Shown piece by piece: positions 3,347-31,944 of a stretch of 53,215 nucleotides of DNA. The notes beneath the pieces were generated by a model that was given only the letters and a program-made list of their open reading frames with translations, made no database searches and was not told the DNA's origin. The translations under genes and the position numbers were made by a program. Source of the stretch: a virus; the IMG/VR virus record IMGVR_UViG_3300025769_000159, positions 1 through 53,215 of that record. The stretch is one strand, 5' to 3'. Numbering within the stretch: the first letter of the stretch is position 1; every line of letters starts with the position of its first letter.

Positions 3347-5107
3347 ATGGCCATAACAAACGCACAACAAGCAAAACAATTATTAGCACAAGGAGGACGT
3401 ATAGGTTTTCAAGGTGGTGGTGCTGATATGGGTGCTTCTGATAAAAAAAGTGTAGATTCAAGAGCTTCAAAAGGCTATGGTGCTCCCTCTGATTCAAAAC
3501 CAACTTACGGTGGAGGAGGTGGAGACGGGGTTAATAAAGTTGATGAAGTTGCATTAACTGGTGGCACTAAAACAAAACCTAAAGTTACAAAAACTAAAGA
3601 TAAAAACAAACGTAATATAGTAAAAGATTATTTTGATAAAAGAAAAGAATTAGCTTACAATCTTTCAAGACGATTACCTGGTGCAACACAATCTTCTTTT
3701 AAAAATTTAACTGATTTTAGAAATTATCTAGTATCTCAAGGAGCAGATACTTCTACAATAGATAGATTAACGGAAGGTGTTGATGAAGATAACCCTATAA
3801 ATTACGAAAACTTTCAAGAACTAGCTTATGATTATGAACCTAAAGGAATTACGGACATTGATAAATTAAGAAGTATATTTAAAGATCCGACAAGAGATCC
3901 TTTTGAAAAATTAACAGCTGTTCCACAAAATTTTTCTGAGTTTATGTTAACACAAAAAAATAATCCTAACTTATTCACTGCTGGTAATGTTGGAAATTTT
4001 AAAGACATGCCTAAACCTAAAGATTTAGTTAATCCTAATACAGGTGAATTATATACAAATACAGAATGGAATGATCTTAAAAGAGAAATAGTTCAAGACA
4101 GAGGTTTAAATGGAGGAGATGGACCACAAGACCCATGTAAAGGACCTAACCCACCAGCATATTGTTTCATAGGTCAGAGTGCAGATGAAACTCAAGAAGA
4201 TGTTATAACTAGAAATCTTGCAGGACTAACACCACGTATAGGTGGATCTATGTTTGATTTTACAGGTATGGCTGATGGTGGTTTAGCAGACATGGATAGA
4301 GAAGCATTCTTGTTAGGTGGTATAGCAAAAGGATTAAAGAAAGCTGTAAGAGGTGTTAAGAAGATAGCAAAATCACCATTAGGTAAGGCTGCATTAATAG
4401 GTGCAGGATTTGGTCTAGCAGGTATGGGTCCTTTTAAAGGTTTAGCTAGTACAAGTTTTGGTCAAGGTCTTGCAGGACTAAGGGGTACTTTACTTGGTCA
4501 AGCAGGTTCAAGAGTTGGTGAAGCTTTTGTTCCATATAAAGAAGGTTTACTTACAAAACTTGGTTTAACAAAAGGTGGTGGATCATTTATGCCGACATTT
4601 AAAGGTGGTATAACTCTTGCATCTATATTACCATTATTAGTAGGAAAAACAGACGAAGAAAAAGATGATATTTTAAAAGACTATTATGCCTCTCAAAAAC
4701 TAATACCATCAACAACAGCTAGACAAGCTGGTAGTGAGTTTGATTTTTATAACTACAATTTAGCAGAAGGTGGTATGCCTAGTAAAGAACCTGTGGCTAA
4801 AAAAGTTATGCCTTTATTAGATATGGATGGTATGGAAAAAGACTATAGAGCAGAAGGTGGATTTGTGCCTATTGGCCGTATGGAAAAAGCAGATGATGTT
4901 CCAGCTAGATTATCCAAAAATGAGTTTGTATTTACAGCGGATGCAGTAAGAAATGCAGGTGAGGGAGATGTAGACAAAGGTGCAGAAGTTATGTATAACA
5001 TGATGAAAAACCTCGAATCCGGGGGTGAAGTATCAGAAGAATCGCAAGGATTAGATGGCGCTAGAGAAATGTTTCAAACATCACAAAGACTAGGAGAAGT
5101 CATATAA
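3347..5107 (+). CDS. long Gly-rich internal virion-type protein
   Basis: A 586-residue protein with four notable parts: an N-terminal GGRIGFQGGG motif near residues 16-25; a lysine-rich, disordered segment around 60-95; a glycine/alanine-rich, possibly membrane-active stretch near 320-390 (KAALIGAGFGLAG and surroundings); and a C-terminal module around residues 500-560 with VPARLSKNEFVFTADAV. I recall that last module from other marine phage virion proteins. It overlaps the next start by one base. Probably packaged in the virion and possibly ejected with the DNA; no enzyme motif seen. The GGRIG motif recurs in the protein at 37593. Confidence 0.65.
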   Translation: MAITNAQQAKQLLAQGGRIGFQGGGADMGASDKKSVDSRASKGYGAPSDSKPTYGGGGGDGVNKVDEVALTGGTKTKPKVTKTKDKNKRNIVKDYFDKRKELAYNLSRRLPGATQSSFKNLTDFRNYLVSQGADTSTIDRLTEGVDEDNPINYENFQELAYDYEPKGITDIDKLRSIFKDPTRDPFEKLTAVPQNFSEFMLTQKNNPNLFTAGNVGNFKDMPKPKDLVNPNTGELYTNTEWNDLKREIVQDRGLNGGDGPQDPCKGPNPPAYCFIGQSADETQEDVITRNLAGLTPRIGGSMFDFTGMADGGLADMDREAFLLGGIAKGLKKAVRGVKKIAKSPLGKAALIGAGFGLAGMGPFKGLASTSFGQGLAGLRGTLLGQAGSRVGEAFVPYKEGLLTKLGLTKGGGSFMPTFKGGITLASILPLLVGKTDEEKDDILKDYYASQKLIPSTTARQAGSEFDFYNYNLAEGGMPSKEPVAKKVMPLLDMDGMEKDYRAEGGFVPIGRMEKADDVPARLSKNEFVFTADAVRNAGEGDVDKGAEVMYNMMKNLESGGEVSEESQGLDGAREMFQTSQRLGEVI

Positions 5108-6237
5108 TGGCAACAGAAACCGTAATAAATCGACCCGCACCATTTGTAGAAGATATAGGTAAAAAATTATCTGAACAAGCTTTAGGATTACAAAACGTTC
5201 CAGTTGTAACAACTGGTATAGGTGGTATTTCAAGACAAGCTGGTGAAACAGATGCGGGCTTTCAATCAAGACAAGATGCTGCAAGAGCATTTACAACTAG
5301 ACAACAAAATTTATCAGGACTTGCACCTAAAGTTGCTCCACAAGATAGATTACAATTAGAAGCACAAAAAAGAGCTGAAGCAGGTTTGGGATCATTTGAA
5401 CCATTTTTACAAAGAGCAGAAACAGAAGCACAACTTGCTAGTGGATTAGGAACCACGGCTCTTGGACAATTAGGAACAGCAGGATCACAATTAGGAATAG
5501 CAGGAACTACATTAGGTGGTGTGCCTTTAGGAGCACAATCTTTTCAACAAGACGTATCTCAATTTATGTCTCCATATCAACAACAAGTTATTGATGTGTC
5601 ACTCGCAGAATTTGATCGTAATAAACAAATGCAAGAACAACAGTTACGAGATCAACAAGCAAAATTGGGTGCGCTCGGCAGTGGTCGAGCGGGAGTGCAA
5701 CTCTCTGAGTTTGGCACAGGGGCAGCAAGAGAACGAGCATTACTACAAGCAGGACTTTTGCAACAAGGTTTTCAACAAGCTCAAGGAGCTAGACAACAAG
5801 ATATACAAAACAGATTTGGTCTTGGCCAAGCGCAAGCAGGATTAGCTGGTCAACAAGCAGGACTCGCTGGAGCAACACAAGGTTTAGGTTCATTTAGATC
5901 TGGTTTAGCACAACAACAAGCACAACTTGGATCTGCTACTCAAGGATTACAAGGAACAGACATAACTAGATTAGGTCAGTTAGGTTCTATTAATCAAGCA
6001 CAAGATCAAGCTCAAAGAGATGCAACAAGAGAAGCTACAAGAATGGCTGCGTTCCAACCACAGGAAGAGTTAAATAGATTTGCAGATATAACAACAGGTA
6101 TCATGGGTGGTATGAGAGGTACAGGAACTACTACAACAAACGTTCCTAACCCTACACCATTACAGTCAGCTTTAGGTGTTGGTTCAACACTTGCTGGTAT
6201 ATATGGTGCGTTCAACCCTAGACCATTATTTGGATAG
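5107..6237 (+). CDS. Gln/Ala-rich internal virion-type protein
   Basis: A 376-residue protein that is strikingly rich in Gln, Ala, Gly and Leu. Residues 160-300 are largely helical with irregular repeats built on LGxAGxQLG, AGLAGQQAGLAG and LAQQQAQLGSATQGLQ units, and QFMSPYQQQVIDVSL near 150. The composition resembles internal or ejection proteins of short-tailed phages, where long Ala/Gln helices line a channel, but homology is not demonstrated. It sits between two other long internal-type proteins in the same operon. No cysteines or catalytic motif noticed. Confidence 0.65.
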   Translation: MATETVINRPAPFVEDIGKKLSEQALGLQNVPVVTTGIGGISRQAGETDAGFQSRQDAARAFTTRQQNLSGLAPKVAPQDRLQLEAQKRAEAGLGSFEPFLQRAETEAQLASGLGTTALGQLGTAGSQLGIAGTTLGGVPLGAQSFQQDVSQFMSPYQQQVIDVSLAEFDRNKQMQEQQLRDQQAKLGALGSGRAGVQLSEFGTGAARERALLQAGLLQQGFQQAQGARQQDIQNRFGLGQAQAGLAGQQAGLAGATQGLGSFRSGLAQQQAQLGSATQGLQGTDITRLGQLGSINQAQDQAQRDATREATRMAAFQPQEELNRFADITTGIMGGMRGTGTTTTNVPNPTPLQSALGVGSTLAGIYGAFNPRPLFG

Positions 6238-6243
6238 TAGAAT

Positions 6244-7803
6244 ATGAATAGAACTTTAAAAAGACCTATGTTTAAAATGGGAGGTTCTGCAGGAACTGGT
6301 ATCACATCAGGATTAGATAAACCTAGACAACAGTACAATGAAGCTGGATCTGTAAATGTATTAGATATGTACCCAAGCGATAATTTTCCAACATTAGGAA
6401 CTAGGGAAATAAAACAAGATACACCACAATTTAATTTAAATGATCTTGCTACTATGCTCCAAGGTCAAAAAGAAGATAAATTTTTACCTAGTGAAGCTTT
6501 ACAAGAAGCTTTTAAAGATAGAAAAACTAAACCAGACCTATCTCAATTTTTAATTAATTTTGGATTAAATTTAGCGTCAGCAACTCCAAGAGGTAATATC
6601 TTCGCAACTGCTGCTGAGTCAGCTAAAAAACCTGCTCAAGCATTCTTTGCTGAACAAGCTGCAAACAAATCTTTTGAAAGAGATTTAAAATTAGCTGGTG
6701 TTAAAATGGACATTAATCAAAGAATAAAAGAAGAAGATGCTAAAAGAGGAGACAATAAATTTTATACATCTAAAAAAGTTTTAAACGTAGACACAGGTAA
6801 TATAGAATTTCAACCTGAAAAAAATATCCAAACTATGCTTTCAAAAGATAAACCCGGTGAAATGTTATTCCAACCTGTTCCTGAAGCAGATAAAACTAAA
6901 CCAGTAAAAGTTTACGACAATCAAACTAAAGGCACAGTGTTTGTTAATCAATCAGATATAATTGGTTCTACATTTACTAATGATAAAGGTAACGAAGAAT
7001 TAAGATATATTCCTGTACCACCTAAAGATAGAACAGTAAGAGCATTTGTTCTTGATAAGGATACAGGTGAATTTGGTGAAAACGCTAAATTTGTAAAAGA
7101 AAGTTTAATTTTAGAAAACCCTGACTTATACAAACCTGTAGAGGGTGATATAGCAATGATGTTAAAAGCAGAAAGTATGAAGATAGATACAGCTAATAGA
7201 AAAGTTGCTGACCAACAAATGTTAGCAGCAAACTCTGTTGCAAAAATTATTAGAAGACTAGAAAAAGATATTCAAGGAGGAGCATTTACAGGAGCTGCGG
7301 GAGATACAGTTCAATTTATTACAGGAGTTTCAGGATTTGTAGATCAATTTATAAATAAAGATAAGAAAACAGATCTTAAAACATTCAACACAGGATACAA
7401 AAGAATTGAAGATCGTATAACACAATTAGAAAATGACGGTTCTATAAATGCAAGATTAACAAGATTTTTAAATTCTCCTGAAACAACTGCTTCAAAAGCA
7501 GATGTTATAAATTTAGCATATGCTATAGCTAAAGCTAGAGAACCTGGTGGTAGATTTAGTATTACGGATATTGATTTAGCTTTACAATCAATAGGTGAAA
7601 GTTCAAATAAATTTAATTTCTTAGAAGGATTAAAAAGAGTTGGTCTATTTACAACTACAGAAGCATTAGATAATTACGTTATGGCTTACAACGTTGCTGA
7701 CGAAGATATACCTGTTAAATACAATGCTTTGGTAAATAATAATAAATACTTTAGAGGATTAGAGGTTGATAACGATATTAGTCCAAACAGTTTAAGTTTT
7801 TAG
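6244..7803 (+). CDS. internal virion-type protein, 519 aa
   Basis: Starts MNRTLKRPMFKMGGSAG, a basic N-terminus ending in a Gly-rich MGG motif similar in style to those of the proteins at 3347 and 37593. The middle is charged and helical (INQRIKEEDAKRG near residue 160), and residues 300-500 are predicted by eye to be mainly helical. No transmembrane or enzymatic signature was recognised. Six bases separate it from the upstream stop and nine from the next start. Its place in the run of long virion genes suggests an internal core or ejection protein. Confidence 0.6.
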   Translation: MNRTLKRPMFKMGGSAGTGITSGLDKPRQQYNEAGSVNVLDMYPSDNFPTLGTREIKQDTPQFNLNDLATMLQGQKEDKFLPSEALQEAFKDRKTKPDLSQFLINFGLNLASATPRGNIFATAAESAKKPAQAFFAEQAANKSFERDLKLAGVKMDINQRIKEEDAKRGDNKFYTSKKVLNVDTGNIEFQPEKNIQTMLSKDKPGEMLFQPVPEADKTKPVKVYDNQTKGTVFVNQSDIIGSTFTNDKGNEELRYIPVPPKDRTVRAFVLDKDTGEFGENAKFVKESLILENPDLYKPVEGDIAMMLKAESMKIDTANRKVADQQMLAANSVAKIIRRLEKDIQGGAFTGAAGDTVQFITGVSGFVDQFINKDKKTDLKTFNTGYKRIEDRITQLENDGSINARLTRFLNSPETTASKADVINLAYAIAKAREPGGRFSITDIDLALQSIGESSNKFNFLEGLKRVGLFTTTEALDNYVMAYNVADEDIPVKYNALVNNNKYFRGLEVDNDISPNSLSF

Positions 7804-7812
7804 GAGCACATT

Positions 7813-10800
7813 ATGTCATTACTTTCAGTTAATAATGTTCAAGAATACAGACAAAAATATGCTGATGCTTTAGAACAAAAATCTTCTGAAATAGGAAAAC
7901 CTATTACAGATGAAATGTTAACTAAATCTATATATCAAAAATTATCTTCAAAAGCAGACATCGATTATTTTTCTTTTTACAAATCTTTTAATCCTGAAGG
8001 TAAATATGCAAACTTAGATACTTATAGAGTTGCAACTAATGATTTAGATTCCAATGATAATGACACTATTAATAAAGCTTATGACGAATTACAGACTGTT
8101 GGTAGAGTTCGTTTTAAAGATTTTGTTAATGTGTTTTCTCCTAAACCTTTTGATAAAGAAGAATATTATGATAATTTTAACATAGTAACATTAAATGTTC
8201 CTGATGTTGAATATAATATAAAAGAAATAGCAGAAATGAGAGGGATTAATCCTGACACAGATGTTAATCTTGCAGAAGTTGGTTTTGCACAAGCTTTAGC
8301 TAGAGACGATGTTGATAAAGCAATAGCTGCTAAAGAAGTTTTAAATAAATATTTTGGAGAAGATATACCAATTAGAATGGGAGAAGAAACAGAAGAACTT
8401 GAATTTTTAAATCCTAATACAGGAAAATATGAATTATTAAATTCTTATGGGTTAGATGAAGGTGATTTAGCTAAATTTGGAACTTATGGTGCTTTTATAA
8501 TTCCTGAAATTGCTGCAACTCTTTTTGCAGCTGGAACTACAGGACCTACAGGAGCTGTAATAACTTCGGCAGCATCAAGTGCAGCACTTGAAACACTTAG
8601 ATTAGCCGCAGGTCATAATTTATATGGTATTAATAAAACTGAAAAAGGGTTTGTAGATTACTTAGAAAATGAAGGTAAAGACTTAGCTGTTTTGAATGGA
8701 TTACTTACAACAGCAGGATTTACAGTTCCTAAACTCTATAGAATGTTTAAAGACATAAGAAGATTTGGTAAAATTAATGCTGCTGAATTTGGTGGTAGAA
8801 TAGATGATGCCGAGGCAGCTAATAAATTAGTTACAAAAATAAATGATAGATTAGTTGAATTAGGAACTAAAAAGAAATTAAGGTTTTCTTTAGGCCAAGC
8901 AGGAGATGATCCTGAATTACTTGCTTTGCAAAATGCTTATGAAACAAATCCTAAATATGGTGTTAAAGGAATTTTTGATACATTTAACAAAGAACAAGCT
9001 GAGGCTTTGGATACTTATATGAATTTAATGGCTAAAGAATATAATTTTCAAGGTTTATCAGGTAAGGACAATATTTTATCAGATGAAATAGGAAAAATGA
9101 TTAGAACAAAGATAGCTGAAAGATTAGCTCCTAAACAAAAAATTTTAACAAATGCTTTAGAAAAAGCTGAAACTGATTTAACAAATGCAGTTATAAAATT
9201 ACCTGATGGAAGTACGAAAGAGGCAGGCACACAGATTAGAAATGTAATAGATAGTTTGTATGATGACTTTGAACAATCTTTTACAGATAAATACACAGCT
9301 TTATTTGCAGCAGGTGGTGGTAGGAAAGTTAACACAGATATTATTAAGACCGCAGTAAAAGAATTAAATCAAAGACAAAAAAATACTTTATTTAACAAAT
9401 ACCCTAACATTAAAACTTTTTTTGATGCACCAAAAGGTACAACAATAAGTATCAATAAATTAAAAAATACTTTAAGTGATTTAAGAAGATTTGATAGAGA
9501 TATTTCAAAAGGTCTTATACCAATAGAAGGAGCACCTGTAGAAGGAGCATTATCAAAATTAATAGGTGCTGTTAAAAATCAGTTAAAAGAAGATTTAGGG
9601 GCAGATGATATTTGGTATAGAGAATTTTTAAAATTAGACAAATCATATGCTAAAAATAAAGATCTTTATAAAGGAGTTATTTCTAAGTTAATGTCTACTA
9701 AAAACGGTAGGTTAGTTATTGCAGATGAGGATGTTTTCAAACAAACTTTTAAAAAAGGTAACGGTCAAATACAAAGAATAGATGATGTGTATGCATTAAT
9801 TAAAAAAAGACCTGATTTAATTCAAACATATAAAGAACAAATTTTAGGTGCTTATAAGGGTATAGTTGACCCAACAAATACAGGAAAAATAAATTTGGTA
9901 GCACATCAGAAATTTTTAAATGATTATAAATATGCTTTAGAAACATTTTTTGGTGGTAAAAATGGATATAAACAAATTGAAAAAATTGGTGAACTTGCAA
10001 AAAAAGTAGAAGTAACAGCGGTAAAAAGAAATAAGTTAATGAAACAATTAGGTACAACCACTAATGGTAGAATAGAGTCAATGGATCCTGATAAAATATT
10101 TGCTTTTCTTTACAATAATAAATCTCCTACAACTTTAAATAAAGTTATGACTATTTTAAGACAGGACAAAGATTTATTAAATGCTTTTCAAACTGTAGCC
10201 AAAGATGATCTATTATTTAAAGTAACTGACAATAGAGGTAATTTTGTGTTTGATAAATTTGCAGATTATTTAAAAAATAATAATCAAGTTTTAACAAGAA
10301 CATTTGCAGATAATCCTAAATTTTTAACAGATTTAAAAATGATGCGAGATGCTCTTGAAATTACTTCAAGAAAATCTGCACAAAAAACAATTGGTAAAGC
10401 TGAAACTGCATTGAATGATATTATTAGAGCAAGACTAGGACAATTTACCGTTGCTGGTAGAACATTTACTGCTTTAAAGAAAATTGTAAGATCAGATGTT
10501 GACAAACAATTAGCAGAAATAATAACAGACCCTAAGAGGTTAGAAGATTTATTAAAATTAAAAACTGTAAAAAAAGATTCAAAAGCTGCAAAACAAATTA
10601 TTACTAGATTATTTGGTTATTATATATTTGACGAAAGATTTTTTGAAGACGATCAATTCACACCTAACATGATTGATTTTGTAGACACACAACAATTAAC
10701 TCAAGATACTAAAGATGTAAATGAAGCTGAAAATCTATTGGCACAAAATACTGAAATAGATAATAGATTTAATCAAGCTGTATTACCTTCAGGTAGTGTG

Positions 10801-11608: not shown

Positions 11609-11935
11609 TTAATACATTCCATATAACCCCCAATTGTACCAATAATAATCTATCGCATGATGAGAGTATGCTCCAATAATACATCCTAAAAAACTTGGTA
11701 ACTTTTTTTGTTTAAATAAAACAGATATAAAAAAACAGCCAAACCCTATAATAGATACCCCTAAAATAGTGTGAAAGAATTTGTGACTAGGATAACCAGT
11801 TGTTAAAAAATAGTAAACAACCTCAATGTCTATAAGTATATTTACAATTGAAAACCATATCAAACTAAAGTGTTTTGGAAACAAAAGTTTTATTGGTGTA
11901 GCTGCTGCAATGTGAAACGGTGTAATCATATCCAA
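11609..11935 (-). CDS. membrane protein, YdjM/DUF457-like metal-dependent hydrolase type
   Basis: A 108-residue protein with about three hydrophobic segments and a set of conserved-looking polar residues: PFHIA (His8), DIEV (Asp36, Glu38), the HKFFHT pair, and YSHHAIDYYW near residue 90. This scattered H/D pattern between helices is typical of the inner-membrane metal-dependent hydrolase-like family (YdjM-type). It is short for that family, so it may be a minimal form. Its start overlaps the end of the helicase gene by 10 bases on the same strand, so the two are co-transcribed. It converges with the endolysin gene. Activity is inferred, not shown. Confidence 0.6.
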   Translation of the reverse strand: MDMITPFHIAAATPIKLLFPKHFSLIWFSIVNILIDIEVVYYFLTTGYPSHKFFHTILGVSIIGFGCFFISVLFKQKKLPSFLGCIIGAYSHHAIDYYWYNWGLYGMY

Positions 11936-13356
11936 TCCTTTAGTTCTTCACCCATAACTTCGGATGCAATGTTAATTTTTTTACGTAAGGCTTCTACTAT
12001 TTTTTCATCAACAGTATCTTCTGCAATTAAATCAATATAAGTTACAGTTTTCTTTTGACCTATTCGATGAGCTCTATCTTCTGATTGTAATCTTTTCTCT
12101 AAATCATATCCGTTAGAAAAATATATTACAGTATTAGCTTGTGTAAGTGTAATACCGTAACCACCTGTTTGTGGTGTACCTATAATAAATCTACATTTAG
12201 GATCGTTTTGAAATTTACGAATATTATCTTGTCTATCTTCTTGAGATGTTAAACCATAGTAATGAACATAAGAATCTTTACCATGTTCTTTAATTATTCT
12301 TTGTATAATCTCACCTACACTTAATTGATAGTTAGCCCAAATTATAGCTTTACCCTCTATGTCTTCAAGAATTGACATAAGTTCATCAAGTCTATTACTT
12401 TCAACTGATTGTGTTGAACCATCATCAGCAGTAAAATGACCACAAGTAATTTGATGTAAGCGCATTAACTGTGTGAGAACAGTCATGGTAGTTGTCACTT
12501 TACCATTTAATATAGCCATAGCTTCTTTTTTCATTTGTTCATAGATTCTTTTTTGATCTGGAGTAAGAGCTACGTGTCTCTTAATAAAATTTTTAGGAGG
12601 TAAATCTAGACAGTCTTCTTTTAAAACTCTGTATGAAAATCCTTTTACCTTATCGGATAGTTCACCCAAATTTTGAAAAGCATCTACTATCTGTATAGAT
12701 CTACCATGAAGATACATAGTTTTCATTTCTGCATATCTATTACGAAAAGCATAAAACGAATCATAATTCAATAACCACGGATCAAGGAACTCACATTGAC
12801 TAAACAAATCTAAAGGATTTTTTGTAATAGGTGAACCCGTCATAATACGTCTGTACTTAGCACACTTACCAAGACTTATAATATTTTTAGTTCTTTTTGT
12901 TGTAGGTGTTTTAATAGTAGTAGATTCATCTATAGCCATTAAAGTTTTATGAGAACTTAAAAATTTAGATGCAAATTTAACACCCTTATCTGTAGACAAA
13001 GACTCTACATTCATAATTAAAATATGTAAGTCTTGTCCTATTTCAAACAGTGATTCTAATTTTTCTCTTTGAGTTTTTGTTATGTTTGATTGCCATAAAA
13101 TATTTTTATACTCTATGTGATTAGGTAAGTGCGTTGGCAGCTCTTGTTCATACCAAGTTTTAACAACACCCTTTGGTGCAATAATTAAAGCGCCATCTAC
13201 TTTACCTTTATCATAAAGCATAGCTAAATTATCTATTAGCACTTTTGTTTTACCTGTACCCATTTCCATAAAATAAGCATAGGTTTCTTTATTCCATGAT
13301 TTTTCTAACGCAGTTAATTGATGAGCGTAAGGTTTTGTTTTAAATTTATAATTCAT
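11926..13356 (-). CDS. SNF2-type superfamily 2 DNA helicase/ATPase
   Basis: A 476-residue SF2 protein with all main motifs: Walker A as MGTGKT near residue 32, IIAPKGVVKTW (motif Ia region), AIDEST (DEAD-box-like motif II) near 145, TGSPITKNPLDL (motif III region), and QSEDRAHRIGQ (motif VI) near 430. The RAHRIGQ form is characteristic of SNF2-family translocases. No extra DNA-binding domain is visible. Such proteins act in phage replication, repair or recombination. It is read opposite to the replication operon, from a near-consensus promoter at 13386-13414, with GAAAGAAG as a plausible ribosome site before the ATG. Confidence 0.88.
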   Translation of the reverse strand: MNYKFKTKPYAHQLTALEKSWNKETYAYFMEMGTGKTKVLIDNLAMLYDKGKVDGALIIAPKGVVKTWYEQELPTHLPNHIEYKNILWQSNITKTQREKLESLFEIGQDLHILIMNVESLSTDKGVKFASKFLSSHKTLMAIDESTTIKTPTTKRTKNIISLGKCAKYRRIMTGSPITKNPLDLFSQCEFLDPWLLNYDSFYAFRNRYAEMKTMYLHGRSIQIVDAFQNLGELSDKVKGFSYRVLKEDCLDLPPKNFIKRHVALTPDQKRIYEQMKKEAMAILNGKVTTTMTVLTQLMRLHQITCGHFTADDGSTQSVESNRLDELMSILEDIEGKAIIWANYQLSVGEIIQRIIKEHGKDSYVHYYGLTSQEDRQDNIRKFQNDPKCRFIIGTPQTGGYGITLTQANTVIYFSNGYDLEKRLQSEDRAHRIGQKKTVTYIDLIAEDTVDEKIVEALRKKINIASEVMGEELKDWI

Positions 13357-15162: not shown

Positions 15163-16668
15163 ATGGAAAATATTAGAAAGTTTATAGAAATATTTGAAGG
15201 ATTAAATCGAGCCCATGGTGTCACTATTGTTGGTGAATCAAATGGTAATGGATCTAAAATAAAAGGTAAATCTTTTGTTAAAAGAGAAATTATAACAGAT
15301 GAGCATTGGTCAAATCATTTACAAGGCTCACAGAGTTTAGGTGTTATACCAATCAATGATGATAACAAATGTAGATGGGGTTGTATAGATATAGACTCTT
15401 ATGCAGGATTTGATCACGCAAAATTAATTAAAAAAATAAAAGAACTCAGTTTACCACTGTTAGTATTTAGATCTAAGTCAGGTGGTGCTCATGTATTTAT
15501 ATTTACAGAAGATTATGTATCAGCTGGTTTGATGCAAGATAAACTAAATGAAATTAGATCTGTGTTAGGTTATGGTGGATCAGAAGTTTTTCCTAAACAA
15601 AGAGAATTAAAATCCAAAGATGATACAGGAAATTTTTTAAATTTACCATATTTTAATGGTGATAATACAGTAAGATATTGCTTTAATAATAATGCTGAGT
15701 CCGTTAATCTTCTAAACTTTTTTGAGTTGTATGAAACAACAAAAATTACCGAACAACAATTATCAGAGTTAAAAGTAAAAAGACCTGAAACACCTTACTC
15801 GGATGGACCACCATGTATAGAACTAATGATGCAAAACAGAGTGGGTGAAGGAGGTAGAAATAATGCTTTATTTCATTACGGTGTATATGCAAAATCTAAG
15901 TGGCCAGAGAATTGGAAGTCTAAGCTAGTAATATTTAACGAAGGTGCAATGGAACAACCATTGTCTGACACTGAAGTAAACATAATAACTAAACAACATG
16001 ATAAGAAAGATTGGGGTTATAAATGTAACGATCAACCAATGTGTAGTTTGTGCGATAAAAAATTATGCAAAACTAGAAAGTTTGGTATTGGTCAAGAAAT
16101 AATGTTTCCTAGCTTAACTGATTTACAAGTTGTTAATTTAGAAGAGCCTTACTATTATATGAATGTAGATGGAGATAGACTATATCTAGACTCAGCAAAA
16201 CATCTAACTAATCAAGTCTTGTTTCAAGAAGAATGTGTCAAGCAGCTTAGATTTAATCCACCAACACTTAAGACAAATGAATGGAAACAAAAGACAAATA
16301 TTCTTCTAGAAGGTGCTGAGATAACGGAGCCTGCTGAAGGAACAGGGACCAAGGACATATTAAAAAATTACTTAGAAGACTACTGTTTGAATAGAGTCAA
16401 AAAAGATGATTTTGAAGATCTTAAAAATGGTGGGACATATACAAAAGATGAATATCATTACTTTGTATTCGACAATTTTTTTCATCAATATCTTACTCGT
16501 AGACATTGGAAGGTGCAGTATCAAAGAACATCACAAATGTTAAAAGATTACTTACATTGTTTTACCAAAAGGGTTGGTAAGACTAAGCTTTCTGTTTTTG
16601 TGGTAGCTAGATTTGATAAAAAAATACAAACATATAAACAAAAAACTTTTAACAAGGATAACTACTAA
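15163..16668 (+). CDS. archaeo-eukaryotic-type primase (AEP, TOTE-like)
   Basis: A 501-residue protein with the AEP primase signature: motif I DxD in GCIDIDSY (Asp76, Asp78), motif II SGGAHVFIF (Ser107, His110), and a downstream EVFPKQ/NFLNLPYF section typical of primases found in TOTE-type and phage proteins. A cysteine cluster near residues 290-305 (CNDQPMCSLCDKKLC) looks like a zinc-binding element following the catalytic domain. The C-terminal 180 residues are less conserved in look and may form a helical primase accessory domain. It would lay primers or copy DNA for the PolA downstream. The stop overlaps the helicase start by one base. Confidence 0.82.
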   Translation: MENIRKFIEIFEGLNRAHGVTIVGESNGNGSKIKGKSFVKREIITDEHWSNHLQGSQSLGVIPINDDNKCRWGCIDIDSYAGFDHAKLIKKIKELSLPLLVFRSKSGGAHVFIFTEDYVSAGLMQDKLNEIRSVLGYGGSEVFPKQRELKSKDDTGNFLNLPYFNGDNTVRYCFNNNAESVNLLNFFELYETTKITEQQLSELKVKRPETPYSDGPPCIELMMQNRVGEGGRNNALFHYGVYAKSKWPENWKSKLVIFNEGAMEQPLSDTEVNIITKQHDKKDWGYKCNDQPMCSLCDKKLCKTRKFGIGQEIMFPSLTDLQVVNLEEPYYYMNVDGDRLYLDSAKHLTNQVLFQEECVKQLRFNPPTLKTNEWKQKTNILLEGAEITEPAEGTGTKDILKNYLEDYCLNRVKKDDFEDLKNGGTYTKDEYHYFVFDNFFHQYLTRRHWKVQYQRTSQMLKDYLHCFTKRVGKTKLSVFVVARFDKKIQTYKQKTFNKDNY

Positions 16669-18396: not shown

Positions 18397-19630
18397 TTTA
18401 TTTTCAGGCATAGGGGGATTTGCTTTAGGCTTAGACTCTACTGGATTTTTTGAAACTGTAAAATTTGTTGAGATGGACAAATACTGTCAGAAAGTTTTAC
18501 AAAAAAACTTTCCTAACATACCAATCGAGGAGGATATAAAAAATGTCAAAGGAAAAGAATACGAAGCAGATGTCATTACTGGAGGATTTCCCTGCCAACC
18601 CTTCAGCGTCGCAGGTAAACAAAAAGGAACAAACGACAACCGCTATCTCTGGCCAGAAATGTTTAGACTCATTAGGGAGATCAAACCCGAATTCGTTATT
18701 GGGGAGAATGTGCAAGGACTTATTAACCTCCAAAACGGCGTGGTACTCAGACAGGTGCAAGACCAATTGGAAAGTGAAGGTTTCGAAGTCCAATGTTTCC
18801 TTATTCCAGCTTCAGGCATCGGTGCTTGGCACCAAAGATACAGAGTCTGGATTGTGGGCCACTCCCAACACAATGGATTACTTGCCGCCGAGAAGCGCTG
18901 CAGGGACGAAAAAGATTATGGAGGGTCACAGAAAAGGGAGAACAAGACCGTCGAACCTAAGAGAACAAGTGGATCCAGAGACAATGAAGATGTATCCAAC
19001 TCCAAAGGAGAGAGACTACAAGGGTGGAGAAGGGAAGAGAGTAATAGAGACACAAAAAGGTTACGCCAAAATTCGAAAAGGAACGGGGACAAGATTTGGA
19101 GCGAGTCTGAACGATGTAGTGGAATATCAAGAGAAGAAGATGTATCCAACACCAACACAAGACTCAGCATCGGAGAGAACGAAGAAGTACAAGCAAGGAG
19201 GGACACCTCTACCACTAGCGGTGAAGATGTATCCAACACCGACAGCATCAGACATAGAAGGTGGAGCAGCGAAGGATGTACAAATAAAGGATGGTCATTT
19301 CTTCAGAGAGAACAAGAAGGGAGAGAGATGGGGAGTGAAACTCAGAGATGCGATGGAAATGTATCCAACACCAACAGCAAGGGATCACAAAGACATGGGT
19401 TATCAACCAACATGGAAACCGAGCAGAGACAAGTCAGTTCCGAGAACAGTGTTGAAGAACAACAAACCTGGTGGCAAACTGAATCCAACGTTTGTGGAGT
19501 TCCTAATGGGATTTCCTATGAATTGGACAAAAACAGAGCCAACAGAATCAAAACCCTCGGTAACGCAATCGTCCCACAAATCGCAAGAGAGTTCGGACTC
19601 GCAATCAAAAAAGTTTTATCCGACTCCTAG
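18371..19630 (+). CDS. DNA cytosine-5 methyltransferase (Dcm-like)
   Basis: A 419-residue C5 methyltransferase with SAM-binding motif I DLFSGIGGFALGL (residues 9-21), catalytic motif IV GGFPCQPFS (Cys75), motif VI ENVQGL (residue 112 on), motif VIII QRYRVWIVG, and motif X LGNAIVPQ near residues 396-403. All catalytic parts are present. The variable target-recognition region (about residues 165-370) is unusual: hydrophilic, Arg/Ser/Glu/Asn-rich, with four VSN(S/T) repeats. The reason appears to be that a second gene is read in another frame through the same DNA from 18543. Target sequence unknown. It would methylate phage DNA, for example against host restriction. Confidence 0.9.
   Translation: MERKLKVLDLFSGIGGFALGLDSTGFFETVKFVEMDKYCQKVLQKNFPNIPIEEDIKNVKGKEYEADVITGGFPCQPFSVAGKQKGTNDNRYLWPEMFRLIREIKPEFVIGENVQGLINLQNGVVLRQVQDQLESEGFEVQCFLIPASGIGAWHQRYRVWIVGHSQHNGLLAAEKRCRDEKDYGGSQKRENKTVEPKRTSGSRDNEDVSNSKGERLQGWRREESNRDTKRLRQNSKRNGDKIWSESERCSGISREEDVSNTNTRLSIGENEEVQARRDTSTTSGEDVSNTDSIRHRRWSSEGCTNKGWSFLQREQEGREMGSETQRCDGNVSNTNSKGSQRHGLSTNMETEQRQVSSENSVEEQQTWWQTESNVCGVPNGISYELDKNRANRIKTLGNAIVPQIAREFGLAIKKVLSDS
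18527..18534 (+). promoter_or_regulatory. strong Shine-Dalgarno inside the methyltransferase gene
   Basis: GAGGAGGA, containing the full AGGAGG, lies 9 bases before the ATG at 18543. In the methyltransferase frame it encodes Glu-Glu-Asp. Its strength and spacing support internal translation of the overlapping gene and set its start. Confidence 0.65.
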
Positions 19631-20144
19631 GGCTAATGAACCTGGTAGAACTACAAAGGGTTATGGTAGAGGTTTGGCAGAGTTAATGGAAGGTAAAGAA
19701 CAAGTAGAGCCAAAGAAAATGTACAGAACTCCAACTGCGATGGACAAGGGGGACAACAGTTTTAAATACGCAGCTAAAATATTAAAAGGTAAATTAAACA
19801 GATCTGAGTCTAAACAACCTGTACAGAAAACATTATCTATGGATGTAGCGATGGAACACTTAAAAGATAATCAACATCTTATAAATGAATACGATGAAAA
19901 ATTTAAAACAAGGCCACACTTACCTCCTAAAGATATTTTTTTAGAATATTTACGAAATAACTTAGACAAGAAAAAGTTAGTTGAAGATGATATAATTAAG
20001 AAGACTACTATTGATCATTGGTTAAGATCAGATCATTGTTTTGCTTATCCAACTGTAGAATATTGGAACATGATTAAACCTTATTTAAAAGAAATAAGGT
20101 TTGATAAAGAAATGACTACTGAAATAGAGAGTGATTGGGAATGA
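18543..20144 (+). CDS. overprinted protein of the methyltransferase locus, repeated YPTP motifs
   Basis: A 533-residue frame, +1 relative to the methyltransferase, sharing 18543-19630 with it and then running alone for 514 bases. Seen: an N-terminal part MSKEKNTKQMSLLEDFPA and an NWKVKVSKSNVSLFQL strand; motifs of the type MYPTPTASD at about seven places (first a diverged WATPNTMD, then copies at 18990, 19140, 19227 and 19359, plus two after 19610); and LNPTFVEFLMGFPMNWT before the methyltransferase stop. The C-terminal 110 residues (HLPPKDIFLEYLR, HWLRSDHCFAYPTVEYW) look like a separate globular domain. I recall similar proteins, often labelled as methylases, in other phage data. No catalytic motif. 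It may assist the methyltransferase. The stop overlaps the polymerase ATG (ATGA). Confidence 0.75.
   Translation: MSKEKNTKQMSLLEDFPANPSASQVNKKEQTTTAISGQKCLDSLGRSNPNSLLGRMCKDLLTSKTAWYSDRCKTNWKVKVSKSNVSLFQLQASVLGTKDTESGLWATPNTMDYLPPRSAAGTKKIMEGHRKGRTRPSNLREQVDPETMKMYPTPKERDYKGGEGKRVIETQKGYAKIRKGTGTRFGASLNDVVEYQEKKMYPTPTQDSASERTKKYKQGGTPLPLAVKMYPTPTASDIEGGAAKDVQIKDGHFFRENKKGERWGVKLRDAMEMYPTPTARDHKDMGYQPTWKPSRDKSVPRTVLKNNKPGGKLNPTFVEFLMGFPMNWTKTEPTESKPSVTQSSHKSQESSDSQSKKFYPTPRANEPGRTTKGYGRGLAELMEGKEQVEPKKMYRTPTAMDKGDNSFKYAAKILKGKLNRSESKQPVQKTLSMDVAMEHLKDNQHLINEYDEKFKTRPHLPPKDIFLEYLRNNLDKKKLVEDDIIKKTTIDHWLRSDHCFAYPTVEYWNMIKPYLKEIRFDKEMTTEIESDWE
18990..19378 (+). repeat. dispersed in-frame repeat ATGTATCCAACNCC
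   Basis: Four copies of ATGTATCCAAC(A/T)CC begin at 18990, 19140, 19227 and 19359. Spacings of 150, 87 and 132 bases are all multiples of three, so each copy keeps the same phase in both overlapping genes: VSN(T/S) in the methyltransferase and MYPTP in the overprinted protein. Confidence 0.8.
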
Positions 20145-24401: not shown

Positions 24402-24510
24402 GGTGGCTAAAGAATTAAAAGATAGACGTTATCACCAACGTGTGATAAAAAATAAGAAAGCATATGACAGGAAAAAAATACACATGGAAGTTTACACCAG
24501 AGGTAGTTAA
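24364..24510 (+). CDS. small basic protein, 48 aa
   Basis: Frame MAAKASKNSSSNKVAKE to EVYTRGS, rich in Lys and Arg (DRRYHQRVIKNKKAYDRKK). It overlaps the upstream gene by 38 bases and the downstream zinc-ribbon gene by 47, both in other frames. The RYHQRV(I/V)KxKK pattern is one I associate with small proteins in other marine phages, which raises confidence that the frame is real. Probably nucleic-acid-binding. Confidence 0.5.
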   Translation: MAAKASKNSSSNKVAKELKDRRYHQRVIKNKKAYDRKKIHMEVYTRGS

Positions 24511-24691
24511 TGGTGTTTGTCCTACTTGTGAAGAGGATACTTTATTGGTTTCGATAACTAGAGAATACTATAGATGTGTAACTTGTGGTACAGATTTAGA
24601 GCAGCATGTAAATGGTAAAATAATTTATTTACCATCCCTAGCGGGTAAAACAGTACAATCTCAAATTGATAAATTTTTAAAAGATGGCTAG
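24464..24691 (+). CDS. small zinc-ribbon protein
   Basis: A 75-residue protein with two CxxC pairs 18 residues apart, CPTC and CVTC, forming a classical zinc ribbon (residues 19-40), followed by a conserved-looking tail GKIIYLPSLAGKT. Likely binds DNA or RNA, or contacts transcription machinery. Preceded by GACAGG only as a weak ribosome site; overlaps both neighbours, which suggests coupled expression at the end of the replication operon. Confidence 0.65.
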   Translation: MTGKKYTWKFTPEVVNGVCPTCEEDTLLVSITREYYRCVTCGTDLEQHVNGKIIYLPSLAGKTVQSQIDKFLKDG

Positions 24692-24818
24692 ACAAAGTTT
24701 TAAATTTTTTACACCTCGTGATAAACCTAAGAAAAGAGGGGCTCGCCAACACAAGAAAAACAAGAATAAAAGCGAGAAAAGACAACAAAAACAGCTTCGT
24801 TACAAAGGACAGGGTTGA
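24684..24818 (+). CDS. small very basic protein, 44 aa
   Basis: Frame MARQSFKFFTPRDKPKKR to LRYKGQG, nearly half Lys, Arg and Gln. It overlaps the zinc-ribbon gene by 8 bases. The FKFxTPRDKxKKR start and the KRxxKxxxYxGQG-type end are familiar from small marine phage proteins. Its stop codon lies inside the -35 box of the next promoter, so it is the last gene of this operon. Confidence 0.55.
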   Translation: MARQSFKFFTPRDKPKKRGARQHKKNKNKSEKRQQKQLRYKGQG

Positions 24819-24843
24819 CATATATCACATAATCTCCTATAAA
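24815..24843 (+). promoter_or_regulatory. near-consensus sigma70-like promoter
   Basis: TTGACA (24815-24820), 17 bases, TATAAA (24838-24843). Transcription would start near 24850, giving a short leader with AGGAG (24856-24860) 8 bases before the ATG at 24869. The sequence CTCCTATAAA around the -10 box is repeated at the promoter at 31916. Confidence 0.7.
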
Positions 24844-24868
24844 TTAAAATTATACAGGAGAAATAATT

Positions 24869-27325
24869 ATGCACGAATATGTAAAAGAATGGTGGGAGAG
24901 TAAAGTCTTTAAGGGACATGAGAAGAGTGAAGAGAACTTAAAAAAGTTTGAAGATCATTTTGGTAGTAGAGATACTTTTTCTAAAAGAATGGAAGAGAGA
25001 GATAACCTAAAAGATGGTCAAAACTTTGCTTTTATTTTACCTAAAGTTGGTAGGAAAAAATCACTACAAATGATTAACTTTATAGCCGAACAAACTAAAT
25101 TAAATAAAGAAAGAGGTGATGGACATATCATAAAAAATTTATGGGTGCCTGAAATAGTAAATGTTGACTACTCAGAATATGTTGATGAACCTATGTACAA
25201 AGGTGCTTTGTTTGCAAAACATTACAAAGATGGGATCCTTATTGTTAACCACCCTTTAAAAGGCAACGAAGGTTGTGCGTTTTTTGAAATAGCCGGGGTT
25301 GGAGATGAAAATACAACTCCCGCAGGTAAAAGTGTTTTTAATATATTTAAGGAATCATTTTCTAATTATGGTCAAATAGATTGGAACCATAAAAATTTTG
25401 ACGAGAAAGTTGTAGTATATGTAGTTCAACCTAAAGTATCTAAAAATACTGCAGCAAGACTTGTTTTTAAAAATAATAAAGCAATGGATAAATTGTTAAA
25501 ATATTTAAGAACAGCAAATTACAAAACACTTGTGTATAATCCACCAAAAGATTTTAAAGATTTTTTTATTAAAAGAACTAAGGACACAGAATTTATTGGT
25601 CTTCTTAAACTAAAAGATAATAAAGAAAAACCTATAAAAGATATTATTGTTGACGAGACTTCAAAAAAAGACTGTTTAAAAACTAGTTGTGCTGTTGAGA
25701 TTTTAGCTTTGTATAATGAGTATCATTGTACAAGCATAGATTCAAAATCTAGAAGAGAGGAACCTAAAAATCTTTTAGAAAAACCCTTGTTCTTTGACGA
25801 ATTAAGAAGATTAAATACCTTTGATAAAATTAAAAATTATTACATGCAAGAAATATTTAACCATGAAAAACATATAGATATTTTTGATATAGCAGGTGAG
25901 AAAGATGATTTAGCTTTCGAAAAAAGAATCACTACTTATTTGAAAAAAGTTATAGTTAAAGCTGCCTTACTATACTACTGCGTAAATGAAGGATTAACTC
26001 TTTGTGATGGTAGAGAAATAAAATACGATACTAAATCTAAAACAGATTGTTTATTATTTTGGTACAAAATAGAAGTCACAGAATTAATATTTAATGTTTT
26101 AAATGTAAACAACTTTCCTCTTTGTATGATTGATTCAACTATTGTTAATGATGCAAAGCCTAGTGATAAAATAGTTGTAGATCAATTAGATGTTACGGTG
26201 GACTATGATGGTTTTATGGAAGAAGCAAAAAAACACCAACGTTCGTTTGATTTTAAAAACAAACATATCATAGAAGAAGCTATGAATAGTTCATTGGGTT
26301 ATACAATGCCTTATGATGGTGTGTTTGAAATACTGCATGACATGGTGTTTAGTTTTATTAAGTTTAGAGAATATCAAGATTATATTACTATTGTTATATC
26401 AGATGATAATGAAAGATATTTCTTTGAAGTGTTTGATAAGAAAAAAAGAGATTTTAAATACTTTTTATGGAATAATTTAAAACTAAATGAGAACTATTCA
26501 GAAGATTGTATTCAAGATATTTACACAAAACTTGCAACATGTATCAGAGATGCAAAGGTATTGATTGAAAGAGATAGTACAATGCAATACAGAGGTAGAA
26601 AAACCCCAAGTAATTGTAAAACTGACTCTGTCTATCATATTTACTTTCCTAAAGTTAGATACAGAAGAAGCTCACATGCTGCACAGGTAAAAAAAGAAAA
26701 AGATTTTTTTGATGAAAGTAGAAAGTTTAGTGGCACAAGAAGAGCTCATATTAGACGTTTAGTAACGGATCAAAAACCATCTAAGAAACAATTACTGTTA
26801 GCTAAAAGATTAGATATATGGATACCTGATGGACATACATTTGTTAGAGAATCCGAATGGGGCAGCAACATGACGAAAAGAGAAATACGTTATAGAAACA
26901 CTGCTTTAAATGGTTTGTTTTATTATGACAGCAGAGAGTTAACAGAAGCTGAAAAGATAGATCAGTTGGGTCCACTTGGTTTTGAAGAATACTGTAGGGA
27001 TTATGTTAAAAAATTAGGTTATGAGGTTAAGACTTGTCAAAACTATGACGGAGGTATAGACATTAGGGCTATGAAAGTATTAGATAACTTAGATACAGAA
27101 TATCTAATGGTTCAATGTAAACATTGGAAGACACCTATACCACCTAATGAGATGAGGGCTTTCAAAACAGCTTGTGACGAAGAACAATCTAACTATAAAA
27201 AAATTAAAATGTTTATAACTTCATCTAGATTTAGTCCGTCAGCTAAGGAGTTGGCTAACAAACATGATATTATAATGGTAGATGGAGATAATTTGATATC
27301 AAGAAAGGAGAGTAATGGCAGCTAA
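24869..27325 (+). CDS. large protein with C-terminal Mrr-type restriction endonuclease domain
   Basis: An 818-residue protein. The last 115 residues form an Mrr-cat PD-(D/E)xK domain: GFEEYCRDYVKKLGYEV helix, DGGIDIRA (catalytic Asp about 731), QCKHW (Gln749, Lys751), then KMFITSSRFSPSAKELA and IIMVDGDNL, all in the family's order. The N-terminal 690 residues are not recognised; they are mixed alpha/beta with patches such as EVTELIFNVLNVNNF and a basic segment around 640-690 (RRAHIRRL, IWIPDGHTFVRESEWG), perhaps a DNA-sensing part. Known Mrr proteins cut modified DNA. It has its own strong promoter and ribosome site. Possible roles are degrading host or rival DNA, or genome processing. Confidence 0.8.
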   Translation: MHEYVKEWWESKVFKGHEKSEENLKKFEDHFGSRDTFSKRMEERDNLKDGQNFAFILPKVGRKKSLQMINFIAEQTKLNKERGDGHIIKNLWVPEIVNVDYSEYVDEPMYKGALFAKHYKDGILIVNHPLKGNEGCAFFEIAGVGDENTTPAGKSVFNIFKESFSNYGQIDWNHKNFDEKVVVYVVQPKVSKNTAARLVFKNNKAMDKLLKYLRTANYKTLVYNPPKDFKDFFIKRTKDTEFIGLLKLKDNKEKPIKDIIVDETSKKDCLKTSCAVEILALYNEYHCTSIDSKSRREEPKNLLEKPLFFDELRRLNTFDKIKNYYMQEIFNHEKHIDIFDIAGEKDDLAFEKRITTYLKKVIVKAALLYYCVNEGLTLCDGREIKYDTKSKTDCLLFWYKIEVTELIFNVLNVNNFPLCMIDSTIVNDAKPSDKIVVDQLDVTVDYDGFMEEAKKHQRSFDFKNKHIIEEAMNSSLGYTMPYDGVFEILHDMVFSFIKFREYQDYITIVISDDNERYFFEVFDKKKRDFKYFLWNNLKLNENYSEDCIQDIYTKLATCIRDAKVLIERDSTMQYRGRKTPSNCKTDSVYHIYFPKVRYRRSSHAAQVKKEKDFFDESRKFSGTRRAHIRRLVTDQKPSKKQLLLAKRLDIWIPDGHTFVRESEWGSNMTKREIRYRNTALNGLFYYDSRELTEAEKIDQLGPLGFEEYCRDYVKKLGYEVKTCQNYDGGIDIRAMKVLDNLDTEYLMVQCKHWKTPIPPNEMRAFKTACDEEQSNYKKIKMFITSSRFSPSAKELANKHDIIMVDGDNLISRKESNGS

Positions 27326-27518
27326 AGAAAAGATAATAACTATCAAACCAAAAGGTGCAACACCCAAACAATACAGTGCATTTTTGTTAGAGTTAAATTT
27401 AATGAAGCGAGCTTGGAAACCATATGGTGTAGACTTACAAGTTAGTGCACCAGGTCTTAGAAATATTATAAGATGGGGAACGAATGCTTACTCAAAGCCA
27501 ATTAGACAAGATAGCTAA
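27315..27518 (+). CDS. small conserved-looking hypothetical, 67 aa
   Basis: MAAKEKIITIKPKGAT start, then QYSAFLLELNLMKRAWKPYG and a C-terminal IIRWGTNAYS. A compact alpha/beta protein without cysteines. Similar small proteins appear, as far as I recall, in other marine phages. AAAGGAGAG in the end of the Mrr gene serves as ribosome site; overlap of 11 bases suggests co-translation with the nuclease. Function unknown. Confidence 0.6.
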   Translation: MAAKEKIITIKPKGATPKQYSAFLLELNLMKRAWKPYGVDLQVSAPGLRNIIRWGTNAYSKPIRQDS

Positions 27519-28358: not shown

Positions 28359-28530
28359 AAGAATAATTTGTACCGTTTGTAAAGGAAACGGATACATTAA
28401 AGCGAAAGGACATGATGGGAAAGATAAGATAAACCAATGTTTTGCGTGTGATTCAGAAGGAGAAGTCTATCAAACTGTTTCATCCAAACAATTTGTTGGT
28501 AACGGTAATAGCAGCCGAAGCATAAATTAA
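28330..28530 (+). CDS. small zinc-finger protein, DnaJ-like CxxCxGxG type
   Basis: A 66-residue protein with CTVCKGNGYI and CFACDSEGEV, two CxxCxxxG units as in DnaJ-type zinc-binding modules, separated by a basic loop. Probably a zinc-binding adaptor for nucleic acid or protein. Starts inside the regulator gene and ends one base into the next ATG, so the three are one translation unit. Confidence 0.65.
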   Translation: MVKLKLNRIKRIICTVCKGNGYIKAKGHDGKDKINQCFACDSEGEVYQTVSSKQFVGNGNSSRSIN

Positions 28531-28979
28531 TGGAAGAAAAGAATTTAGCTTATATAGCTGGTTTGTTTGATGGCGAGGGACATATTCAATACAAACAATA
28601 CATGCGTCAACGAAAGCATAACATTAAACCTTATCCAACTTGGTCAATTAGAATGGAAATGGCAATGACAGATCAATCTATTTTAATTTGGGTTTGTGAA
28701 ACTTTGGGAGTTGGAACTGTTGGAGAGAAAAGATATAAGACAAGGTACTCAAAAACTTGGAAAAAACAATGGCGTTGGAGGTGTTGTCACCGTGATGCTT
28801 ATTATGTTTCTAAACTTTTATGGCCTTTTGCTCACATAAAGTTAGATGGAATACAAAAAATAATAGCTCATTACGCTAAGAAAAAAATAAAAGTTAAAAC
28901 AAAAAACGAAGTAATAGATTTTAATTATTACAAATTTTGGAGAGAACACAATGTCAAAGAAAAAGAAAAAAGAAAATAA
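28530..28979 (+). CDS. LAGLIDADG-type homing endonuclease
   Basis: A 149-residue protein with the signature helix near the N-terminus: YIAGLFDGEGHI (residues 8-19), the LAGLIDADG motif with its acidic residue. One motif only, so it would work as a dimer. RMEMAMTDQSIL and the Arg/Trp-rich WRWRCCHRDAYYV core match the usual DNA-binding beta sheet. It is free-standing, not inside an intron or intein that I can see. Its end overlaps the oxygenase gene by 29 bases, and it may have entered the genome as a mobile gene. Confidence 0.8.
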   Translation: MEEKNLAYIAGLFDGEGHIQYKQYMRQRKHNIKPYPTWSIRMEMAMTDQSILIWVCETLGVGTVGEKRYKTRYSKTWKKQWRWRCCHRDAYYVSKLLWPFAHIKLDGIQKIIAHYAKKKIKVKTKNEVIDFNYYKFWREHNVKEKEKRK

Positions 28980-29616: not shown

Positions 29617-29813
29617 GACATTTGTTTGAAACATGCATCGATGTGGGTAGTGGTTTGCTGCTATCGACACTAATACAGTTGTTCATTTTTCCATTTTTTG
29701 ATATGTACCCAACAGTTCTTGAAAGCTTCCATATAGCTGTAATCTTTACGGTAATTTCTATATGTCGAAGTTGGTTTTGGAGAACGATATTTGGTAAACG
29801 GAGAAGAGTATGA
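29613..29813 (+). CDS. two-helix membrane protein (DUF7220-like)
   Basis: A 66-residue protein with two hydrophobic helices (LLLSTLIQLFIFPFF and FHIAVIFTVISIC) and a basic end RSWFWRTIFGKRRR. The pattern of a Pro-Phe break, FTVxSxxRS and a final Arg-rich tail fits a widespread small phage membrane protein family. ATGA overlaps at both ends. Role unknown, inner membrane. Confidence 0.65.
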   Translation: MRHLFETCIDVGSGLLLSTLIQLFIFPFFDMYPTVLESFHIAVIFTVISICRSWFWRTIFGKRRRV

Positions 29814-30547
29814 AGCACAGTAATAAGTATCAATATGTTCGAGGTAGACAAATCGATGAACACGGATCAAGGACCTATGATGTAAATGGTTCTAGACTTC
29901 CGTCAGTTACTACGATATTAGGAGCCACCAAAAACCAAGATTTTTTAAAACAATGGAAGGCCAAAGTTGGAGAAGCAGAAGCAGAGCGAATCAAAAACTA
30001 TAGTAGTAGTCGGGGGACAGCTATGCACAAATTCTTGGAACATCATGTACTCGGAACTAACATCGTTGATCTTACGAGGATTGGACAAGAGGCGCGTCCC
30101 ATGGCCGATAAAATTATTGAGATGGGTCTTACACCTGTTGAAGAGTATTACGGCTCGGAAGTCACTTTGTATTATCCTGGGTTATATGCTGGGTCTACTG
30201 ACCTCGTTTGTAGTCATAATGGTAAAGAATCTATTGTAGACTTCAAGCAATCTAACAGACCTAAACGAAAAGAATGGGTTGAAGATTACTATTTACAAAT
30301 TGCTGCATATGCCATGGCACACGACCACGTTCACGGGTCCCAGATCCGTCAAGGTGTGATCATGATGTGTACGCCAGATTTATATTACCAAGAATTTATA
30401 ATCACGGACCATGAATTAAGGAGCTATAAACATAAGTTTTTGAAGAGATTGGACATGTATCATGAGCTCAAGTTTGATGAGAAAGAACAACACAACACGG
30501 AAAAAGAAAACGAAGAATACTTAAAGGAGTTAGAAAGGAAGCTATGA
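29810..30547 (+). CDS. PD-(D/E)xK exonuclease, Cas4/RecB-like
   Basis: A 245-residue nuclease with the RecB-type motifs: LPSVTTILGATK near residue 30, RGTAMHKFLEHH (His73), YAGSTDLV (Asp131), SIVDFKQSN (Asp144, Lys146), and YYLQIAAYAMAH (Gln163/Tyr). All key residues of the family are present. In phages this type takes part in recombination, DNA end processing and host DNA breakdown. ATGA overlap with the membrane protein upstream and with the small gene downstream, so it is cotranslated with them. Confidence 0.88.
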   Translation: MKHSNKYQYVRGRQIDEHGSRTYDVNGSRLPSVTTILGATKNQDFLKQWKAKVGEAEAERIKNYSSSRGTAMHKFLEHHVLGTNIVDLTRIGQEARPMADKIIEMGLTPVEEYYGSEVTLYYPGLYAGSTDLVCSHNGKESIVDFKQSNRPKRKEWVEDYYLQIAAYAMAHDHVHGSQIRQGVIMMCTPDLYYQEFIITDHELRSYKHKFLKRLDMYHELKFDEKEQHNTEKENEEYLKELERKL

Positions 30548-31915: not shown

Positions 31916-31944
31916 TTGACAATTTAGGGTAACTCTCCTATAAA
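31916..31944 (+). promoter_or_regulatory. near-consensus sigma70-like promoter
   Basis: TTGACA (31916-31921), 17 bases, TATAAA (31939-31944), with CTCCTATAAA as at 24834. The start of transcription would be near 31951, at or next to the ATG at 31952, so a leaderless message is possible. Confidence 0.65.

Follow-up and report, generated by a model that had tools for sequence, protein, structure and literature searches.

The stretch of DNA analyzed here (the window; 53,215 nucleotides) comes from an HTVC023P-type pelagiphage; its terminase shares 71% identity with the one encoded by Pelagibacter phage HTVC027P. The hosts of pelagiphages, SAR11, are the most abundant bacteria in the sea. Comparison of neighboring genes revealed a conserved accessory region between the DNA polymerase and the terminase small subunit, and this region is indeed opened by a large nuclease gene, as an earlier sequence-only reading had proposed (Table 1). 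The same reading had described an 818-residue protein with a clear Mrr domain, which was borne out by the open reading frame (ORF) and by an Mrr_cat match at the C terminus. Of the span assigned to it (24815 to 27325), the end was correct, but the start is that of the −35 promoter box, and the ORF begins at 24869.

Table 1 Features at and around the nuclease gene in the window
Feature	Residues	Nucleotides	Strand	Remarks
Zinc-ribbon protein, small		24464..24691	+	Left border of slot 1
Sigma70-type promoter		24815..24844	+	TTGACA-N17-TATAAA (lineage form TTGACA-N14-TCCTATA); phage accessory operon
AGGAG ribosome-binding site		24857..24861	+	
Large phage Mrr-type nuclease gene		24869..27325	+	818 aa; ATG start; stop included
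N-half	88-430	25130..26158	+	Blocks A, B, and C; fast-evolving; fold unrecognized
N-half block A	88-215		+	Beta-rich in structure model
N-half block B	216-388		+	Variable, helical
N-half block C	389-430		+	Short, conserved
D-block	460-690	26246..26938	+	Strongly conserved; putative DNA-binding/recognition region
Mrr_cat nuclease domain	697-811	26957..27301	+	PF04471, E=5.6e-22
67-aa conserved small protein		27315..27518	+	Right border of slot 1
PDDEXK exonuclease		29810..30547	+	Right border of slot 2

The Mrr_cat match scored 78.5 bits against a curated cut-off of 21, and the domain was found in relatives of the protein, too. The long N-terminal region had been called unrecognized, and it stayed so: residues 1 to 690 had no match in Pfam, PHROGs, NCBIfam, PADLOC, or PDB sequences. 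At E≤1, Pfam returned nuclease models and one insignificant DUF, with neither an Mrr_N winged helix nor another known recognition domain, and the sole match in a PDB sequence search was AF1548, weak and confined to the nuclease part. Like Mrr-type restriction endonucleases (PF04471), the protein ends in the catalytic domain, whose GID and QxK motifs are intact. In contrast to these enzymes, it has ∼690 unrecognized residues where the winged-helix N terminus would be expected, and its gene is phage-borne and changes position. The PADLOC candidate defense family PDC-S02 was matched by the nuclease region (E=8.4e-12), but over profile positions 191 to 303 of 334, i.e., over the nuclease part instead of the full length.

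Within the D-block, residues 545 to 690 are strongly basic, with a net charge of ∼+9 per 100 residues in the window protein and a family mean of ∼+15 per 100 residues in the first part of this segment, which would suit contact with DNA. The D-block also carries an FSGxRRAHxRR motif reminiscent of RRPHxRRGH in PHROG 6160-like phage proteins, whose elements follow one another similarly. As hhalign gave an E value of about 0.01 and 2 of 200 column shuffles reached the score, we rejected membership of the D-block in this group and treat the weak signal as a suggestive lead, short of established homology.

Searches with the whole protein or with alignments of the first relatives yielded about six loci, and the Mrr domain alone yielded 36. 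In this way, 29 additional relatives, new here, were found among IMG/VR viral contigs; the viral searches used short peptide patterns, and the family size is a lower bound. Most of these records are fragments, from which absences are weak evidence. New loci with an unbroken ORF encode 803 to 884 residues, all in the order N-block, D-block, and Mrr domain, with the N-block weakest in L051. In an alignment of 30 sequences (the window protein and the 29 relatives, of which L013 ends before the C terminus), all 29 members reaching the C terminus share one architecture. E706, E707, D727, D731, Q749, and K751 were invariant in 29/29 proteins reaching that region; thus, a loss of the catalytic Asp, Gln, or Lys in relatives, which the sequence-only reading had named as the observation that would speak against it, was not seen. 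Invariant residues of the D-block are R560, D561, R568, D569, P594, Y598, G622, R624, R625, H627, R629, and R676. In close pairs, dN/dS was 0.10 to 0.39 for the N part, 0.02 to 0.17 for the D-block, and ≤0.18 for the nuclease domain where computable. Because the catalytic residues are invariant and dN/dS lies well below 1, the nuclease is a working protein under purifying selection. In most pairs the N-half also exceeded the Mrr domain in dN/dS; positive selection on it was rejected, since values of 0.10 to 0.39 are merely above those of the D-block. At one locus (L059:3906-6399), the gene is distributed over three ORFs (3906 to 4409, 4671 to 5771, and 5680 to 6399), reflecting either a broken copy or sequencing errors.

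Two genome scans, each with one or two short patterns that could miss some relatives, detected none in bacteria. With the probes used, no family member was found among deposited phages, where the one match was an Mrr domain in a Salmonella record; a query with another family member found none either. The Mrr domain was absent from the three related deposited phages HTVC027P, HTVC023P, and 023Pt_psg01.

An AlphaFold2 model built from the 30 sequences had a mean pLDDT of 76 and a pTM of 0.72, with a moderately confident N-terminal part; a model from 7 sequences (pLDDT, 44) was discarded. When the PDB was searched with this structure by Foldseek, only the nuclease had counterparts, with MspJI ranking first (4f0p, E=2.4e-4, 142 columns), followed by Cdn1, AspBHI, and AF1548; searches against viral models (BFVD) matched short phage Mrr endonucleases. 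Among the best PDB and BFVD matches there was no convincing counterpart of residues 1 to 690. The nuclease domain is therefore MspJI-like in fold, with MspJI and AspBHI as its nearest solved structures; however, the likeness covers ∼140 of 818 residues, and an SRA-like 5mC-binding domain was not found among the best matches, given an N-terminal model of moderate confidence.

This resemblance bears on the main rival explanation, a type IV-like modification-dependent enzyme that cuts the modified DNA of rival phages and recognizes the modification through its N-half and D-block. MspJI and AspBHI are both modification dependent, and the PADLOC mREase_IV model was matched weakly in 2 of 5 members. 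Some sister clades (V, VIII, and IX) are reported to carry genes for thymidine hypermodification and are predicted to hypermodify this nucleoside (PMC9599517), and thymidylate synthase (PF00303) was absent from the carriers searched. Yet the searched relatives without the nuclease likewise lacked PF00303, and the comparison of carriers with noncarriers was dropped. Moreover, the matches end at the nuclease, an SRA or other base-flipping domain was not found, and modification dependence cannot be diagnosed from an Mrr_cat fold. For the same reason the earlier label of a modified-DNA nuclease went too far: the Mrr_cat fold alone does not prove such dependence, and a 5mC-reading domain was not detected. 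We consider a type IV-like enzyme unlikely.

The sequence-only reading had also seen a paradox in the C5-methyltransferase encoded by the same phage (positions 18371 to 19630). Besides the window, PF00145 occurred in 3/35 other viral-contig records, many of them fragments, and PF01555 occurred in 1; both were absent from the longest other carrier record (G032, 65 kb). Since only 4 carriers encode a C5-methyltransferase, the paradox is not a property of the family. It is very improbable, too, that the nuclease and the C5-methyltransferase form a restriction-modification pair. The two genes overlap by 4 bp in L008, and the methyltransferase was found in none of the 27 noncarrier records and none of the three related deposited phages. 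However, among records that extend far enough upstream, counted by hand from contig coordinates, the difference between 4/13 carriers and 0/11 noncarriers was not significant (one-sided p about 0.07). A cognate methyltransferase did not accompany the nuclease across members, and an obligate pair was rejected given the methyltransferase's minority occurrence and its absence from G032. In the window, a 533-aa ORF (18543 to 20144) that is read in a different frame and has no Pfam match overlaps the methyltransferase gene over ∼1.1 kb, and the L008 methyltransferase (7934 to 9187) is overlapped by a 357-aa ORF (8085 to 9158); possibly, these represent a conserved overprinted gene.

The nuclease gene does not occupy a fixed position. 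In slot 1, as in the window, it lies between the zinc-ribbon gene and the 67-aa gene; in many relatives it stands in slot 2, directly before the PDDEXK exonuclease, and L008 is arranged in yet another way. In L010 the gene occupies slot 2, and its empty slot 1 is closed, with the promoter between the two flanks. Together with 41 other empty slots, this locus demonstrates presence and absence of the gene in collinear relatives with an intact empty site. At least four slot changes were required on the protein tree; the slot labels, like the mosaic test described below, rest on one alignment. The gene was carried by 3/80 of the nearest exonuclease loci and by 2/41 of those in which the entire interval could be seen. 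Introns, inteins, or terminal repeats that would point to a known mobility mechanism were not seen, and relocation could have occurred via ordinary recombination in a variable region. Between both slots lies a LAGLIDADG-like ORF (28530 to 28979) conserved in 20 loci, a possible homing partner.

Directly upstream of the nuclease gene in the window, the TTGACA-17-TATAAA promoter and AGGAG site reported by the sequence-only reading are present, but the promoter is not the gene's own. The bare consensus is mildly unusual, with 4 one-mismatch sites in the window versus 1.1 expected. In contrast, TTGACA-N14-TCCTATA with ≤1 mismatch had 3 sites versus 0.13 expected, which is beyond chance; this longer form is conserved throughout the lineage. 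With a spacing of 13 to 15 nucleotides and ≤1 mismatch, it was present in 31/42 empty slot-1 gaps versus 1/840 shuffled gaps. Because the same promoter sits in empty slots, it is the phage's, and the gene entered downstream of it. Slot-1 copies use this phage promoter; most slot-2 copies have no such promoter upstream. A second TTGACA-N14-TCCTATA copy in the window (31916 to 31944) adjoins the terminase small subunit gene, a pairing repeated in L001, L002, and L010.

The slot-2 arrangement raises the question of a recombination or DNA-processing nuclease that is paired with the neighboring PDDEXK exonuclease and serves end processing, branch cutting, or packaging. The gene stands immediately before the start of the exonuclease, or overlaps this start, in L002, L010, L012, L046, L047, L062, L068, and L069, and such overlapping or abutting copies could have a joint function in recombination. 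Nevertheless, the exonuclease is accompanied by the nuclease in only a few percent of the phages that encode it, and slot 1 is 2 to 4 kb away from it, so that we regard this explanation as improbable.

We compared trees of the N-half (residues 88 to 430) and the C-half (residues 460 to 811) for a ten-member subset. A clade of L008 and L012 was supported by the N-half (95/95) and rejected by the C-half (AU p=0.002), whereas a clade of the window protein with L010, L012, L039, and L041 was supported by the C-half (99/98) and rejected by the N-half (p=0.0003); the p-values are somewhat generous, as the clades were chosen from pairwise identities seen beforehand. Since the two halves give conflicting trees, the modules recombine. 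Tree length was 8.56 for the N-half versus 3.10 for the C-half, a ∼2.8-fold difference. In L052 (765 to 3416), dN relative to L063 was 0.04 in the N part and 0.24, with saturated dS, in the nuclease; judging from these sequences, the nuclease domain of L052 has apparently been exchanged.

Such module swapping, like the rate of the N-half, fits a changing target better than the streamlined host, and thus argues against host takeover, in which the enzyme would degrade SAR11 DNA to gain nucleotides or stop transcription while phage DNA is protected by modification or timing. The position at the operon head with host-type sigma70 promoters and the C5-methyltransferase encoded in the window are consistent with that role. 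However, the gene is rare in the lineage and absent from HTVC027P, HTVC023P, and 023Pt_psg01, and methyltransferases occur in a minority of carriers only. We judge host takeover to be decidedly unlikely.

For comparison, free-standing phage homing endonuclease genes (e.g., the T4 Seg genes and those of ICP1; PMC10448857) and PhiPA3 gp210 (PMC11620839) were considered. Among phage homing endonuclease genes, exchange of domains and changes of location have been described (PMC10448857), and gp210, an intron endonuclease of PhiPA3, hinders a coinfecting phage (PMC11620839). The pelagiphage gene likewise is present or absent in collinear relatives, varies in position, and swaps domains. In contrast to that group, the window nuclease is much larger and has an Mrr-type fold, and its homing-like role is a proposal. 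Its size of ∼820 to 880 aa speaks against that role, as phage homing endonucleases are usually far smaller.

An enzyme acting on competing DNA fits better than a housekeeping enzyme because the gene is working, rare, relocating, and recombining, and its fast-evolving part lies away from the catalytic domain. Our best reading, a role against other phages or in competition with them, is tentative: the gene may encode a mobile, modular, catalytically intact endonuclease of HTVC023P-type pelagiphages that attacks competitor DNA in a manner resembling homing or interference (probability, roughly 0.42). The target, the timing, the competitor role, and homing are all inferred. By homology and conservation, the C-terminal Mrr fold would cut DNA; the basic, highly conserved D-block would position the enzyme on it; and the fast-evolving, recombining N-half may pick which DNA, or under which condition DNA, is attacked. 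A slot-1 copy would be expressed from the phage's promoter, which heads the accessory operon. The most likely target would be the DNA of competing or coinfecting phages without the gene, resulting in interference competition, and the gene itself would spread, much as in homing, when the carrier's genome serves to repair the cut. A more far-reaching version, which we find somewhat doubtful, is that of an undescribed class of large modular mobile phage nucleases, in which a rapidly changing N-module, exchanged between phages, steers the conserved basic D-block and the Mrr domain to rival pelagiphage genomes, possibly with hypermodified thymidine, amounting to phage-on-phage restriction.

Most pelagiphage accessory genes are without an assigned role. 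A nuclease family whose active site is intact, whose putative recognition region recombines, and whose empty sites are clear makes competition among marine phages directly testable, through the DNA that is cut, the success of carriers in coinfection, and self-copying of the gene.

Elsewhere in the window, a primase (15163 to 16668) matches the archaeo-eukaryotic primase of the TOTE conflict system (PF22548, E=1.2e-15), and a SNF2-family helicase (11926 to 13356, minus strand) is encoded on the strand opposite to its neighbors and adjoins Pam3-like phage genes.
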